Below are positions 128 to 5,570 of a DNA stretch of 5,570 nucleotides, one piece after another. The position numbers were made by a program, and so were the translations under genes. The number at the start of each line of letters is the position of its first letter. The first letter of the stretch is position 1. The notes under the pieces are model-generated. The model saw only the letters and a program-made list of their open reading frames with translations, ran no database searches and was not told the DNA's origin. Source of the stretch: Acidobacteriota bacterium (GTDB lineage Bacteria; Acidobacteriota; Terriglobia; Terriglobales; Acidobacteriaceae); the NCBI GenBank assembly GCA_021805955.1, contig JAJZDO010000363.1:1-5570 (forward strand), written 5' to 3'.

Positions 128-697
128 ATTGCAGGAGCAAAGCTCAACTTTGTGGGCACGGATGACTATGCTGCTGGACGCATGGCGACCGAACATTTGA
201 TTACTCAGGGATGTCTCAGGATTGCCCACATCCGTGGGCCGGAGGTCGCGACTGCCCAGGAGCGTTTGCGTGGCTATGCCGATGCGCTCGAGTCCAACGG
301 ACTGGAGTATCGCGCCGATTGGGTGGTGGCAGCCGATAGGGTAGACAGCGGCGCGACTCAACATGGGGCTGAAGCGATGAAGCGACTGCTGGAAAGCTCG
401 GAGCGTCCTGATGCCGTCTTTGCTTTCAATGATCCATTGGCTATTGGAGCGATGCACGCGGCGCTGAACGCGGGGTTGCGCATTCCCGAGGATATGGCTT
501 TTATCGGTTGCGGAAATCTGCATTTTGACGATTTACTTCGAGTGCCGCTTTCTTCCGTGGACCAGCAGAGCGCGGAGATTGGCCGACGCACAGCCCAGAT
601 TCTGCTCGATTTGATCGAGACAAAAGAAAAGCCAGCTTCCAGGTCTGTGATTCTGGAGCCTCATCTGATCCCACGTGCCTCATCCCTTCGCCGATGA
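128..697 (+). pseudogene. LacI/GalR-family regulator remnant (effector-binding C-terminal half only)
   Basis: The product resembles the periplasmic-binding-protein-like effector domain of LacI/GalR repressors, which normally bind a sugar or nucleoside and control DNA through an N-terminal helix-turn-helix. Family signs, counted from the GTG at 152, are FVGTDDYAAGRMATEHL at the start, QERLRGY (36-42), PDAVFAFNDPLAIGA (86-100), the GLRIPEDMAFIGCGN stretch (108-122) and PLSSVDQ (132-138). A full member has about 330-350 residues; here only about 190 remain, and the whole DNA-binding domain and first half of the sensor are missing. Likeness begins near 128 (IAGAKLNF), upstream of any usable start codon, and the frame is closed by TGA at 113-115. 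This favours a truncated, decayed gene over a designed small protein. If translated, GTG 152 or ATG 182 would be the start; the AGGAG at 133-137 lies rather far from 152. A free-standing effector-domain protein is the alternative. Confidence 0.75.
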
Positions 698-1921: not shown

Positions 1922-3973
1922 CTATAGCTGCGTAGTTCTCTCCTCCGCAGCAACTCGCTCAATCCGCAGAACGGTAATATCGTCCGTCTGCCCCATGCGG
2001 ATGGCGGCGTCGGAGATCTGCTGCGCCGATAATCTAGAGAGCTGTGCCACAGCCTCGAAGCCCAAGAGATTGCCTCGGCCATCCTGTGCCTCCGGCACGC
2101 CATCGGAGACTACAACAAGCGAATCGCTGACATCCAGCCACAGGGTCTTATTTTCATACTCCGCCTGTTCAGTGATTCCAAGCGGCAAAGCTCCCCTCAT
2201 CTCCATCTCCTGCCCGTTCCAATACGGCGCCGGGTGTCCAGCGCCAGCAAAGGTAGTCGTGCCGTCCGCAGCAATGTGGCACACGATGCAGGTGGCAAAA
2301 TGACCAGACTGATGCACCAGCAGAACAGTATTCAAAGCGCAGAGAATCGAAACCGGATCCGATGTGATGGCCACCTGCGCGCGCGCGGCTCCGACCAGCG
2401 TTGCAACCAGCATGGAGGCTGGCAGACCCTTGCCCGAGACATCGCCCACGATCACGATCAAGCCTCGTCGTTCCGTGGGTACGACGAGGAAAAAATCGCC
2501 TCCCACCATCTCCGCTGGCCGATAGGCGCAGTCGATGCGAAGGCCCGCAACCTGCGGCATCGCCTCGGGCAGTAGCAAGCGCTGCACCTGCCGCGCAGCT
2601 TCAAGCGAAGCAACCATCCGCTCTTCACGCCGTCTCGCGCGCGTGAAGCGATCCGTCAGAAACCCCATCATGGCAATCAGAAAAAGGGTCTGCGCCAGAA
2701 TCGTGGGATGCATCCGAAAGCCGACGATGGAGATCGGGTGTTCAAACGGTTCCGGGTCGTGCAGCAGGTGAAACTGGTTCAGCGTCAGCGTAATGTCGTC
2801 CAGCAAAGAAAGACCAGTCATCAGCACCACGGGCAGCAGCATCAGACGCGCAGGGGTGTTTTGGTGTACGCTCTCCACCAGCAGCTTCCACAGCACCCAA
2901 AGCATGGCTGGCAGCAGCATCATAATGCCGATCCATCCTGCCACCGGTGCGGGCACTAATTCTGTCCAATACAAAGGAACCGTGAGGATCGACAGCACTC
3001 CCAGTACGAGGATTGCCTGTCTCAGCATGGAGAGCGGCTTCCCCAGCACGCGGCTGATAAACATCAAAAGAGACAGTTGGTAGGCGATCTGCAGAGCCGA
3101 ATGAATCAGGTCCCAGAGCGGCAGCGCCTGCAATCGGATGATAAAGATAATCTGTAGCAGGGCGTCGATGCCAAGCGTGATCGGCATCAGCGCAAACCAT
3201 AAATATTCGGTATCATCGCGACGAAACCAGAAAAGCCCCAGCGAAAAAATCGCGATCACGCAGGCTAGCAAGGCAAAGGCAAAGTTATCCGTATAGTAGC
3301 CAAGCAGCTGTGTATGGCGGCGCTCCAGCATCTCGCTTAGCCTGTCAACATCACCCACCATTCCGCCGCCATGCGCCGGCCCTGCAAAATAGTATTGGGC
3401 GATGGATGCCTGCGCCCACACGCGCAAAGCTATCAGATAGGTGTGACTTTGCGCCGCGCCGCCTCGTGGCTGGTTGATTGCGGGCAGCAGATACATCTGG
3501 CTTCTCACCACGGCTACTCGAAGCAGGGGAATTGGCGTATCGTGATAACTGCCTGTCGAGCCAATGCGGATTCCGTCGGCAAAAATCTCATAGCCCATCG
3601 AAACGGGTGGCAACAGAATCGCCCATCGCTGCTGCCCATTGGGAACGGTAACCCGGAAGCGATACCAGCCATATCCAGTCAATTGTTCCAGGCCCGGATG
3701 CACCTGCCCCTGATCGCTCCACGGAGCATCGCTACGCAGCAGACTCCAGTCGGAGTCGTTGTAAGACGGCTGCGCCCACTGCCGTGTGCTGCTCGGGTCA
3801 TCGCCCGGATGAAAGCGCCACTGGCCGTCGAGAGAGGTCAAAGGAACCCCATTGCCTTGTGGGCTGAAGATTCCCGCGGTCGCAACGCCAGACTGTTGCG
3901 CCCTTGACGCCGCATCTGCCATCAGCCACACAAGCAGCAGCCAAACAACCAGTGAAATTCTTCGCAGATTCAT
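1922..3973 (-). CDS. membrane sensor with SpoIIE/RsbU-like PP2C serine phosphatase domain
   Basis: The 683-residue product joins an extracytoplasmic sensor to a cytoplasmic PP2C-type Ser/Thr phosphatase. In order: Sec signal (1-25); a jelly-roll, galactose-binding-like domain (about 40-195, with LDGQWRF, DSDW and GYGWYRFRV as in GH2 N-domains and 7TMR-DISM receptors); about seven membrane helices (about 227-440); a basic coiled-coil linker (441-470, ending RQVQRLLLPE); and the SpoIIE/PP2C domain (475-671). Metal-site motifs are all present: GGDFF (491-495), GDVSGKG (510-516), AGH (578-580), SDG (623-625) and TDD (663-665), so it should be active. Family knowledge says such phosphatases dephosphorylate anti-sigma-factor antagonists (RsbV/SpoIIAA-like) in partner switching; no partner is in this window. 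The start at 3973 is chosen because an AGGA (complement of 3982-3985) lies 8 bases upstream and the signal peptide begins there; the reading frame stays open to 4087, but that extension would hide the signal. The ligand is unknown; a carbohydrate is an inference from the fold. Confidence 0.9.
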   Translation of the reverse strand: MNLRRISLVVWLLLVWLMADAASRAQQSGVATAGIFSPQGNGVPLTSLDGQWRFHPGDDPSSTRQWAQPSYNDSDWSLLRSDAPWSDQGQVHPGLEQLTGYGWYRFRVTVPNGQQRWAILLPPVSMGYEIFADGIRIGSTGSYHDTPIPLLRVAVVRSQMYLLPAINQPRGGAAQSHTYLIALRVWAQASIAQYYFAGPAHGGGMVGDVDRLSEMLERRHTQLLGYYTDNFAFALLACVIAIFSLGLFWFRRDDTEYLWFALMPITLGIDALLQIIFIIRLQALPLWDLIHSALQIAYQLSLLMFISRVLGKPLSMLRQAILVLGVLSILTVPLYWTELVPAPVAGWIGIMMLLPAMLWVLWKLLVESVHQNTPARLMLLPVVLMTGLSLLDDITLTLNQFHLLHDPEPFEHPISIVGFRMHPTILAQTLFLIAMMGFLTDRFTRARRREERMVASLEAARQVQRLLLPEAMPQVAGLRIDCAYRPAEMVGGDFFLVVPTERRGLIVIVGDVSGKGLPASMLVATLVGAARAQVAITSDPVSILCALNTVLLVHQSGHFATCIVCHIAADGTTTFAGAGHPAPYWNGQEMEMRGALPLGITEQAEYENKTLWLDVSDSLVVVSDGVPEAQDGRGNLLGFEAVAQLSRLSAQQISDAAIRMGQTDDITVLRIERVAAEERTTQL

Positions 3974-3980
3974 GAAGGTT

Positions 3981-3993
3981 ATCCTGCTAGGAT
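3981..3993 (-). promoter_or_regulatory. ribosome-binding site of the PP2C gene inside a small inverted repeat
   Basis: On the minus strand the leader reads ATCCT-AGC-AGGAT. The second arm contains the AGGA that serves as ribosome-binding site, 8 bases before the ATG at 3973. In mRNA the two 5-base arms could pair around a 3-base loop and hide the site; in DNA the same element could be an operator. The stem is short, so the regulatory role is an inference. Confidence 0.4.
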
Positions 3994-4001
3994 TGCAGTT
4001 C

Positions 4002-4007
4002 GAGGAG
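4002..4007 (+). promoter_or_regulatory. Shine-Dalgarno site deciding the nucleoside hydrolase start
   Basis: GAGGAG lies 6 bases before ATG 4014, the strongest ribosome-binding site in this stretch. It favours 4014 over the in-frame ATGs at 3972 and 4080, neither of which has a comparable site. Confidence 0.7.
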
Positions 4008-4013
4008 ACTGGC

Positions 4014-5111
4014 ATGATCCTAACGCACAAAGTGAAATTTGTCGTCTGGATTGCACCATCGCGTAAGTTTTTGAACCGAATGCCCATATGGGTTGGAATC
4101 GTACTTCTGTCGCTGGCTGCCGCCGCATCGAGTCTTGCCCAGGCTCCCAGGTTCCGTCTGCACGTCGGTACAAACGTCGCGCCTGGAGCAACCCGACCGG
4201 CAAAACAGCAGAGCGTTGCTCATCCTCGCCTGGTCTGGGTAGATACCGATATTGGCGATGATCTCGACGATGCTTTCGCACTCGCGCTTCTGCTGCGCAG
4301 TCCTGAGGTGCGGATCATCGGCATCTCCACCACCTTTGGCGACACGGAACTTCGTGCGCGCCTGCTGGATCGCTTTCTCGCCTCGTCTCATCTCCACGGC
4401 ATTCCGGTCTATGCCGGTGTCCCAACGGCAACCTCCAATCTTTTCACTCAGCGCGAGTATGCCCAGCAGTCGCCTGCTCGCACCCATCCAGACGCAATCA
4501 CGGCTCTACTGGCCGCGGTGCATCAGTACGGTAGTCAACTCACCCTGCTGGCGATTGGACCATTGTTCAATGTGGCCCAGGCCATGGATCGCGACCCAGC
4601 CACCATGCATCAACTAGGGCAGATCGTCCTCATGGGAGGATCCATCCGGCAGGGGTACCGCACCGCGCCAGGTCATCGAACGCCGCCCGCTGCCGAATGG
4701 AACATCGCGCAGGATCCACCTGGGGCGAAGACCGTCTTCGCCTCCGGCATCCCTCTTGCCGTCTTTCCGCTCGACTCCACCCAGATCGCCCTGGATCGAT
4801 CCGACCGAGAGAGAATCTTTGCTGCTCACGCGGCTCTCACAAACCAACTCCATACCCTCTATCGGGAATGGCGACCACACTCCTGGAATCACTCCCCCTC
4901 GCCGATCCTCTTCGATGCAGTGGCAGCTTCCTCGATTCTTGCGCCTCAACTCTGCCCCACACAGCCCATGCGCATCGCAATCACCCCGGACGGATTCACC
5001 GAGGTTGTGCCGGGCGCAGCCAATGCTCAGGTCTGTCTGCACTCAAGCCACGATGCATTTCTTCGCCTTCTGGAGGAGCGACTGGATCCTGACACGGCCC
5101 CGGCTGGATAA
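4014..5111 (+). CDS. exported nucleoside hydrolase (inosine/uridine-preferring family)
   Basis: The 365-residue product belongs to the IunH-type nucleoside hydrolases, which split the N-glycosidic bond of ribonucleosides into base and ribose. The calcium-binding signature is DTDIGDDLDDAFAL (from residue 77), with two extra residues compared with the common DxDxGxDD form. Other family blocks are AIGPLFN (180-186; usually GPLTN), MGGS (207-210), EWNIAQDP (228-235), PLD (252-254) and ILFDAVAAS (from 298), whose D301 matches the last metal-binding Asp. The catalytic His that often precedes this Asp is Phe300. Residues 1-44 form an unusually long export signal: a 22-residue basic n-region containing RKFLNR, then a hydrophobic core and ASSLAQA, so the enzyme probably works in the periplasm or outside. 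A start at ATG 4080 would give a shorter signal without positive charge and lacks a ribosome-binding site. The gene is divergent from the PP2C gene, 40 bases away. A nucleoside-scavenging role is likely; the exact substrate is not readable. Confidence 0.88.
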   Translation: MILTHKVKFVVWIAPSRKFLNRMPIWVGIVLLSLAAAASSLAQAPRFRLHVGTNVAPGATRPAKQQSVAHPRLVWVDTDIGDDLDDAFALALLLRSPEVRIIGISTTFGDTELRARLLDRFLASSHLHGIPVYAGVPTATSNLFTQREYAQQSPARTHPDAITALLAAVHQYGSQLTLLAIGPLFNVAQAMDRDPATMHQLGQIVLMGGSIRQGYRTAPGHRTPPAAEWNIAQDPPGAKTVFASGIPLAVFPLDSTQIALDRSDRERIFAAHAALTNQLHTLYREWRPHSWNHSPSPILFDAVAASSILAPQLCPTQPMRIAITPDGFTEVVPGAANAQVCLHSSHDAFLRLLEERLDPDTAPAG

Positions 5112-5197
5112 TCCGATTGACCCGTCAAGTTGCATGTTATGAATCACATCAGCCTTTTAGTTCCGTCTGGGGCAAGCCAAAGTCAGGAAGTGGGGTG

Positions 5198-5226
5198 TTG
5201 ACCAATTCGACGCTTCTTGATAGATT
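5198..5226 (+). promoter_or_regulatory. sigma70-type promoter before the hairpin region
   Basis: TTGACC (5198-5203, five of six matches to the -35 consensus) and TAGATT (5221-5226, four of six to the -10) are separated by exactly 17 bases. Transcription would begin near 5233, about 54 bases before the first strong hairpin. No convincing protein start follows, so the natural product is the structured RNA described next. Confidence 0.45.
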
Positions 5227-5232
5227 AAGAAG

Positions 5233-5523
5233 GTTCGTCGAGAATGCGTCTTCGGGCATTTTGGAAGTTGTAACAATCTGAAGCGCGGCCACCTCAAAGG
5301 GTGGCCACATAAGCCGGTTAGGTTCATCAACCGGCGTCATTCCAGAAGCGCCAGTTTGGCTGGATTGGAATGACAGAAATTTTCGCTACGGTGCCTGCGA
5401 CACCCTTCACCTAGAAGGACTATGCAGGCCAAAACTCAGGAAACGGAATCGGTTATTCCGGCATTCAGGAATACACGCGGTCACCGTCCGGGTTTTCGTC
5501 TGAGATTGGGTAAGTGGCAGACG
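5233..5523 (+). ncRNA. probable structured non-coding RNA with serial hairpins (candidate HEARO/omega-RNA-like)
   Basis: Near-perfect inverted repeats follow one another without a convincing reading frame. They are: GGCCACC 5287-5293 with GGTGGCC 5300-5306; GCCGGTT 5313-5319 with AACCGGC 5329-5335; GTCATTCCA 5336-5344 with TGGAATGAC 5366-5374, with a smaller GCCA/TGGC stem inside; GCCTGC 5393-5398 with GCAGGC 5424-5429, enclosing CCTTC 5404-5408 and GAAGG 5414-5418 across a symmetric 5x5 internal loop; CGGAAT 5444-5449 with ATTCCG 5455-5460; and CGTCTG 5497-5502 with CAGACG 5518-5523. A small CTTCGG-loop hairpin (AATGC 5243-5247, GCATT 5256-5260) precedes them. The strand is taken from the promoter at 5198. 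Hairpins arranged this densely recall guide-scaffold RNAs upstream of IscB-type nucleases (HEARO/omega RNA), but I cannot match a conserved core with certainty. An mRNA leader for a gene beyond 5570 or a mobile-element end are alternatives. The outer limits are approximate. Confidence 0.5.
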
Positions 5524-5570
5524 CGAGCAGCAGCTATTCCTTGTGCCATGTGCGCAGGGTTTCGCTTCAC
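5524..5570. other. right edge, no recognised feature
   Basis: All that can be said of the last 47 bases is that two plus-strand frames stay open to the window end without a start preceded by a ribosome-binding site. A gene could begin just outside. Likewise, 5112-5197 after the hydrolase stop shows no clear terminator or gene. Confidence 0.3.

Follow-up and report, generated by a model that had tools for sequence, protein, structure and literature searches.

The window, i.e. the whole stretch of 5,570 nucleotides that was analysed, corresponds to G000:C58:3328-8897 (minus strand) of a 3.1 Mb assembly comprising 107 contigs. A gene at 3852-5111, encoding a nucleoside hydrolase according to Pfam, is followed by a train of hairpins at 5287-5523, and beyond the window end we found, on the same strand as this element, a gene with a TTG start after AAGGAG, two further genes and the first codons of a fourth. 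The first three encode S12 (rpsL), S7 (rpsG) and EF-G (fusA), each above the cut-off of the curated NCBIfam models, while the fourth begins like EF-Tu (tuf) as read by eye from the DNA. Judged from the sequence, the genes past the window end form the str operon, rpsL-rpsG-fusA-tuf, and the TTG start of rpsL would fall at 5617 if the numbering of the window were continued. At the other side, close to the contig end at which the window starts, positions 152-697 (+) encode a LacI-type sugar-binding domain with no DNA-binding part in view.

Upstream of the hairpins, a consensus scan (9/12) identified a candidate sigma-70-type promoter for the str operon, TTGACC-17-TAGATT with an extended -10, at 5198-5226 (+); promoter-like sites numbered 2 in the stretch scanned vs 0.5 in shuffles. 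An AGGTTC start motif (5231-5236, +) is conserved just past the -10 in relatives and is seen also in two genomes that lack the leader (see below). We infer that transcription starts near 5230-5234, and with a start near 5232 the leader would be about 385 nt long. A TTGAC...TAnnnT-like promoter followed by GGTTC was present in 79 of the 105 leaders with enough upstream sequence (the regular expression used missed the other 26), compared with 8 of 2100 single-letter shuffled sequences, and a stricter pattern combining promoter and start motif occurs once in the genome of origin, at the 5198-5242 locus. The start motif before rpsL often reads GGTTCNGCGAG, and the extended -10 together with AGGTTC is retained where the leader has been lost. 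That the promoter is kept in both leaderless genomes examined indicates that promoter and leader evolve separately. With the rpsL operon downstream and this promoter upstream, the hairpins belong to the leader at the 5' end of the str operon transcript; the hairpin train is thus, as read from its genomic setting, a structured 5' leader of the rpsL-rpsG-fusA-tuf mRNA of Acidobacteriaceae.

The initial annotation had described 5287-5523 as a dense series of hairpins, probably a structured RNA. The arms are indeed present, with perfect pairing at 5287-5293/5300-5306 (7 bp), 5313-5319/5329-5335 (7 bp) and 5336-5344/5366-5374 (9 bp), further arms at 5393-5398/5424-5429 (6 bp, plus an upper tier) and 5497-5502/5518-5523 (6 bp), and two overlapping 6-bp pairs inside 5444-5473. 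When this interval and 23 tiles of 237 bases were folded on both strands, each against its own 40 shuffles, 5287-5523 (+) was the most stable, and no other tile of the window is as strongly structured (z -5.1, rank 1/48). The fold of 5270-5570 has a predicted energy of -121.7 kcal/mol (z -5.14 on the plus strand, 0/100 shuffles equally stable), and since the minus strand scores nearly the same (z -5.11, 0/100 shuffles equally stable) the strand of the hairpin element had to come from its context. The six head-to-tail repeats of the initial annotation stand as far as their arms are concerned, but in the fifth hairpin the pairing that is conserved is a longer one, 5431-5451/5478-5496, and not the local 5444-5449/5455-5460. 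Likewise, the interval 5287-5523 is structured as proposed, but the conserved core reaches 5526 and the leader runs beyond the window end to the rpsL start. Moreover, coding sequence does not account for the element, in agreement with what had been claimed, as the reading frames that overlap it are all short, with 63 aa (5149-5340, minus strand), 57 aa (5157-5330, minus strand) and, in an open frame, 53 aa (5407-5568, minus strand). A protein gene was rejected given that these short frames are all there is and that relatives diverge by compensatory changes, and a repeat was rejected given that the element is single copy in its own genome and that the window is without tandem repeats.

The leader can be divided into faster-evolving upstream hairpins and a conserved core, all on the plus strand. 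Hairpins a (5287-5306), b (5313-5335) and c (5336-5374), which carry the three perfect arms given above (7, 7 and 9 bp, respectively) and are part of the minimum-energy fold, have counterparts, by eye, solely in the two closest relatives, where the counterparts of hairpin a differ in letters; positions 5287-5374 evolve faster than the core P0-P3. The core (5383-5526; alignment of 40 leaders) is laid out as a junction of three hairpins, P1, P2 and P3, the middle one with an internal-loop motif, and is closed by P0 (5383-5386 with 5523-5526). Hairpin P1 (5393-5429) is composed of 5393-5398/5424-5429, an internal loop and 5404-5408/5414-5418, and covaries in both alignments described below. Hairpin P2 (5431-5496) has an outer part, 5431-5437/5490-5496, and covarying flanks around a near-invariant motif made up of G5440, the bulge A5441-A5442, the pairs 5443-5446/5484-5487, A5447 opposite C5482-A5483, and the pairs 5448-5451/5478-5481. 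Hairpin P3 (5498-5522) is formed by 5498-5502/5518-5522 and is mostly invariant, with 97.5% of pair cells formed in the 40 leaders. The remaining leader inside the window covers 5527-5570; the window ends before the ribosome-binding site and the TTG start of rpsL are reached.

Alignments of relatives provide support for this structure. Alignment A1 holds 83 of 107 non-redundant cores, and for its 22 named pairs, which like those of the second alignment belong to structures derived from the same sequences, 93.5% of the cells were formed vs 80.5% in shuffled alignments, 15 pairs had changed on both sides vs 11.2 (244 such cells vs 82.9) and the covariation score was 0.424 vs 0.188; none of these measures was reached by any of the 500 shuffles, while sliding the pairing by one base left 40-45% paired. 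Alignment A2 was built from 40 of the 52 window-type leaders; the other 12, which are more divergent, were left out by hand, and P0 and P3 are consequently less general than P1 and P2. In A2, 97.6% of pair cells were formed vs 92.0% in shuffles, 15 of 36 pairs had changed on both sides vs 8.6 (95 such cells vs 27.7) and the covariation score was 0.266 vs 0.165; as in A1, each of these four measures was reached by 0/500 shuffles, and a fifth measure, further pair types (39 vs 34.5), by 5/500. For P0 and P3, which hardly vary, the support is conservation. RNAalifold predicted 42 consensus pairs for the window-type leaders, 21 of them with compensatory changes, which backs the reading of the element as a structured RNA. 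In the 83 leaders of A1 the P2 motif letters G-AA-ACGG-A with CA-CCGU-C are invariant or nearly so, and the pairs flanking them covary with up to six standard pair types; near-invariant letters within a covarying helix are as expected of a recognition site, and P2 is a candidate for holding one.

We sorted the leaders into two types that have P1 and P2 in common and differ in their flanks. The window-type leaders have a longer P2, then the third hairpin P3, and a junction closed by the four-pair P0. In the second type (55/107), the region downstream of P2 has conserved blocks around AUGG and CCAGCC, the ATG being invariant and followed by G in most rows (e.g. L128 and L136), which suggests a further folded domain. 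RNAalifold on alignment A3, which comprises 44 of the 55 second-type leaders, gave no pairs in these downstream blocks, and a helix scan was ambiguous.

A DNA search with 5110-5570 of the window gave matches at E up to 0.1 in 63/200 related genomes, those beyond the family being weak, and the conserved part was mainly 5380-5555. Among the loci fetched by this search 28/29 hold rpsL, which is downstream of the match in 28/28 cases, while L006 ends earlier. The rpsL upstream regions that were collected yielded 124 distinct cores with the motif; the motif search missed six loci, five from other families (L044, L048, L049, L057 and L060) and one from the same family (L105), where the covariance model recovers a copy that carries a long insertion. 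This model (R1), at E up to 0.01, detected 29 of the 31 same-family genomes in a phylum-wide sample of 297 genomes, with one match each, and 0 of the 266 genomes outside the family; a comparison of coordinates placed all 29 matches upstream of rpsL. A class-wide sample of 250 genomes, which overlaps the phylum-wide one, gave 54 strong matches with E values up to 7.5e-14, which all fall within the family and many of which are training sequences. Nine further rows were weak, with E values of 0.016-0.086; two of them belong to the family and seven do not, and we took all nine as noise. Of the 17 same-family genomes drawn after the model had been built, 16 match, with E values no worse than 7.4e-17.

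Scanning 84,980 species genomes for a pattern gave at least 117 loci. Among the matches listed, 111/117 are followed by rpsL, on the same strand and no more than 700 nt away, three loci (L204, L206 and L277) are too short to tell, and we judge L243, L279 and L290 to be chance pattern matches; 79 of the 80 named loci carry acidobacterial names (Edaphobacter, Granulicella, Candidatus Sulfotelmatobacter, Acidobacteriaceae and Terriglobia, among others), the other being L243, and the family is accordingly referred to as Acidobacteriaceae. The position 5' of rpsL in 29/29 model matches and in 111/117 of the pattern matches listed is the behaviour of a cis-regulatory element and not of a mobile guide RNA. 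Three genomes of one genus in the same family, G045, G108 and G586, gave no R1 match. The upstream DNA of the first two (L294 and L295, respectively) is leaderless with the promoter kept, and G586 is leaderless by the model, while G427 and G465, which belong to the same genus, keep the leader. Its loss in the two same-family genomes examined indicates that the leader is dispensable. One genome, G502, has two rpsL loci (L103 and L104), each with the leader motif, reflecting either a duplication or a mixed assembly.

How the str operon, which encodes S12, S7, EF-G and EF-Tu, is controlled has been worked out in E. coli. We consider it likely that the acidobacterial element is a ribosomal-protein autoregulatory leader of this operon, with uS7 as the most likely ligand and uS12 as a less likely one, and that through this leader the cell probably keeps its production of ribosomal proteins in check. 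We infer the regulation, its ligand and its output step, which could be translation, transcript elongation or mRNA stability. After transcription has started near 5232, the RNA would fold into the P1, P2 and P3 junction closed by P0, with the faster-evolving hairpins in front; under a shortage of 16S rRNA, one of the operon's ribosomal proteins, left free, would bind the near-invariant P2 internal-loop motif, and the bound protein would lower str operon expression, giving a negative feedback loop. Ranking uS7 ahead of uS12 is due to the E. coli precedent alone. By analogy, a long structured cis-linked leader with near-invariant internal-loop nucleotides has the look of ribosomal-protein leaders, and we find the place 5' of rpsL, the covarying structure and the consistent gene association across species that characterize these leaders. 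The named operon genes, the constant place, the covariation, the leader's own conserved promoter, the model matches in 16 of the 17 later-drawn genomes and the uS7 precedent argue for autoregulation, and the lack of a match in G045, G108 and G586, the different location of the E. coli uS7 site and the fact that neither a convincing rRNA mimic in 16S nor an output device was found argue against it.

Many ribosomal-protein leaders mimic rRNA, which is common and not required. Looking up the P2 motif in one 16S gene (L296) returned only short shared words, and when three rRNA loci (16S and flanking DNA) were searched with the model, no hit had an E value below 1.7; neither result was convincing. 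The longest shared word noticed in the look-up output, the ten-letter CTGACGAAAC at about 1107-1116 of the L296 16S, is common to the P2 5' strand in some second-type leaders, possibly by chance. As to the output step, terminator-like hairpins were in mild excess in window-type leaders (16/52 vs 8.5 expected) and showed no excess in the second type (2/55 vs 2.2), and the accessibility of the ribosome-binding site did not differ from that in shuffles for the two types (0.54 vs 0.51 and 0.49 vs 0.45, respectively). Downstream of the core, the genome of origin has a weak site resembling a terminator, at about 5539-5559.

Among the alternatives, a smaller though appreciable probability is assigned to a new RNA family whose P2 motif is recognised by uS12 or by a ligand other than uS7; this would be a control circuit of the str operon different from that of E. 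coli, with two architectures, the second having additional conserved blocks downstream, and lost in part of one genus. A riboswitch or attenuator in the str operon leader that senses a small molecule (e.g. an alarmone or a nucleotide) or an RNA-binding protein from outside the operon is unlikely: the near-invariant P2 bulge and internal loop and the conserved P1 internal loop could be a ligand pocket, and no rRNA mimic was found in the one 16S gene and three rRNA loci, but the samples searched associate the element with one ribosomal operon only, where ribosomal-protein leaders are a common solution. We regard it as improbable that the leader is passive, has no specific ligand and only determines the basal level of translation or the stability of the mRNA. 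Its loss in a few genomes of one genus and the variable upstream hairpins would fit, whereas the near-invariant unpaired nucleotides in covarying helices point to specific recognition. An independent small RNA made from the same promoter and acting elsewhere is very improbable; the weak terminator-like site and the mild terminator excess in one leader type speak for it, and the constant place 5' of rpsL and the other leader type, without such an excess, against it.

The autoregulatory leader proposed here can be compared with known systems. In E. coli, uS7 represses the str operon via the rpsL-rpsG spacer (PMC10931766). The acidobacterial system would be similar in that the operon is the same, the RNA structure is in its mRNA and an operon product is the presumed ligand, but unlike the E. 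coli site the element precedes rpsL and is part of its 5' leader. The spacer between rpsL and rpsG measures 43 nt in the genome of origin and 0-438 nt (median 89) in 161 distinct loci. The rpsL motif of 'Candidatus Pelagibacter ubique', located between rpoC and rpsL, has a bulged P1 that leads to a three-stem junction (PMC2704228). Compared by text descriptions, both are structured RNAs 5' of rpsL with covariation and a restricted lineage, and they differ in that the element described here has a nucleoside hydrolase gene upstream and a P0-P1-P2-P3 junction. The rpsL-leader attenuators of Listeria, Xanthomonas, Pseudomonas and Rickettsia are multiform with a terminator near the start codon (PMC2965389); these are also upstream of rpsL, but no consistent terminator was found in our 52 + 55 leaders. 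As far as the terms used reach into them, neither a paper on 20 leaders (PMC7247131) nor one on 50 genomes (PMC11109978) describes a leader from acidobacteria or one that responds to uS12 or uS7. Within the mainly open-access papers that our literature search covered, we found no acidobacterial rpsL leader.

A search of Rfam 15 gave no family for the element, whether in the window (E up to 5), in the contig (gathering threshold) or in 20 relatives (E up to 1), which leaves the class suggested in the initial annotation without a match in the Rfam search it had called for. We rate the element as an RNA family absent from Rfam, probably belonging to the ribosomal-protein leaders and set apart from the Pelagibacter motif by text description. 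The family would be new, and would add to the instances in which distinct RNAs have evolved to control one and the same operon. The RNA has clear limits and a candidate binding site, it comes from a major phylum of soil bacteria, and with leaderless relatives as natural controls the question of str operon control becomes directly testable.

The suggested class, a HEARO/omega-type guide RNA of a transposon nuclease, resembles the element in having several stems in a row, but we give it next to no credence and consider it refuted as far as these tools reach: besides the lack of an Rfam match, no IscB/TnpB-like or other nuclease gene is among the four window proteins tested (Pfam) or the three operon proteins (NCBIfam), the element is single copy in its own genome, and its place 5' of rpsL is fixed in relatives, i.e. 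it is not mobile. A tRNA or tmRNA identity was rejected as there was no match at the element. The one Rfam hit in the window, at 640-736 and thus outside the element, is to a human lncRNA model and does not reach the cut-off of that model, and a MEG3_2 match on the other strand in L033 that touches the edge of the element (28.5 bits vs a cut-off of 60) was taken as chance. Finally, the locus of one relative (L045, 3011-3080, minus strand) carries a fluoride riboswitch above the cut-off, unrelated to the leader.
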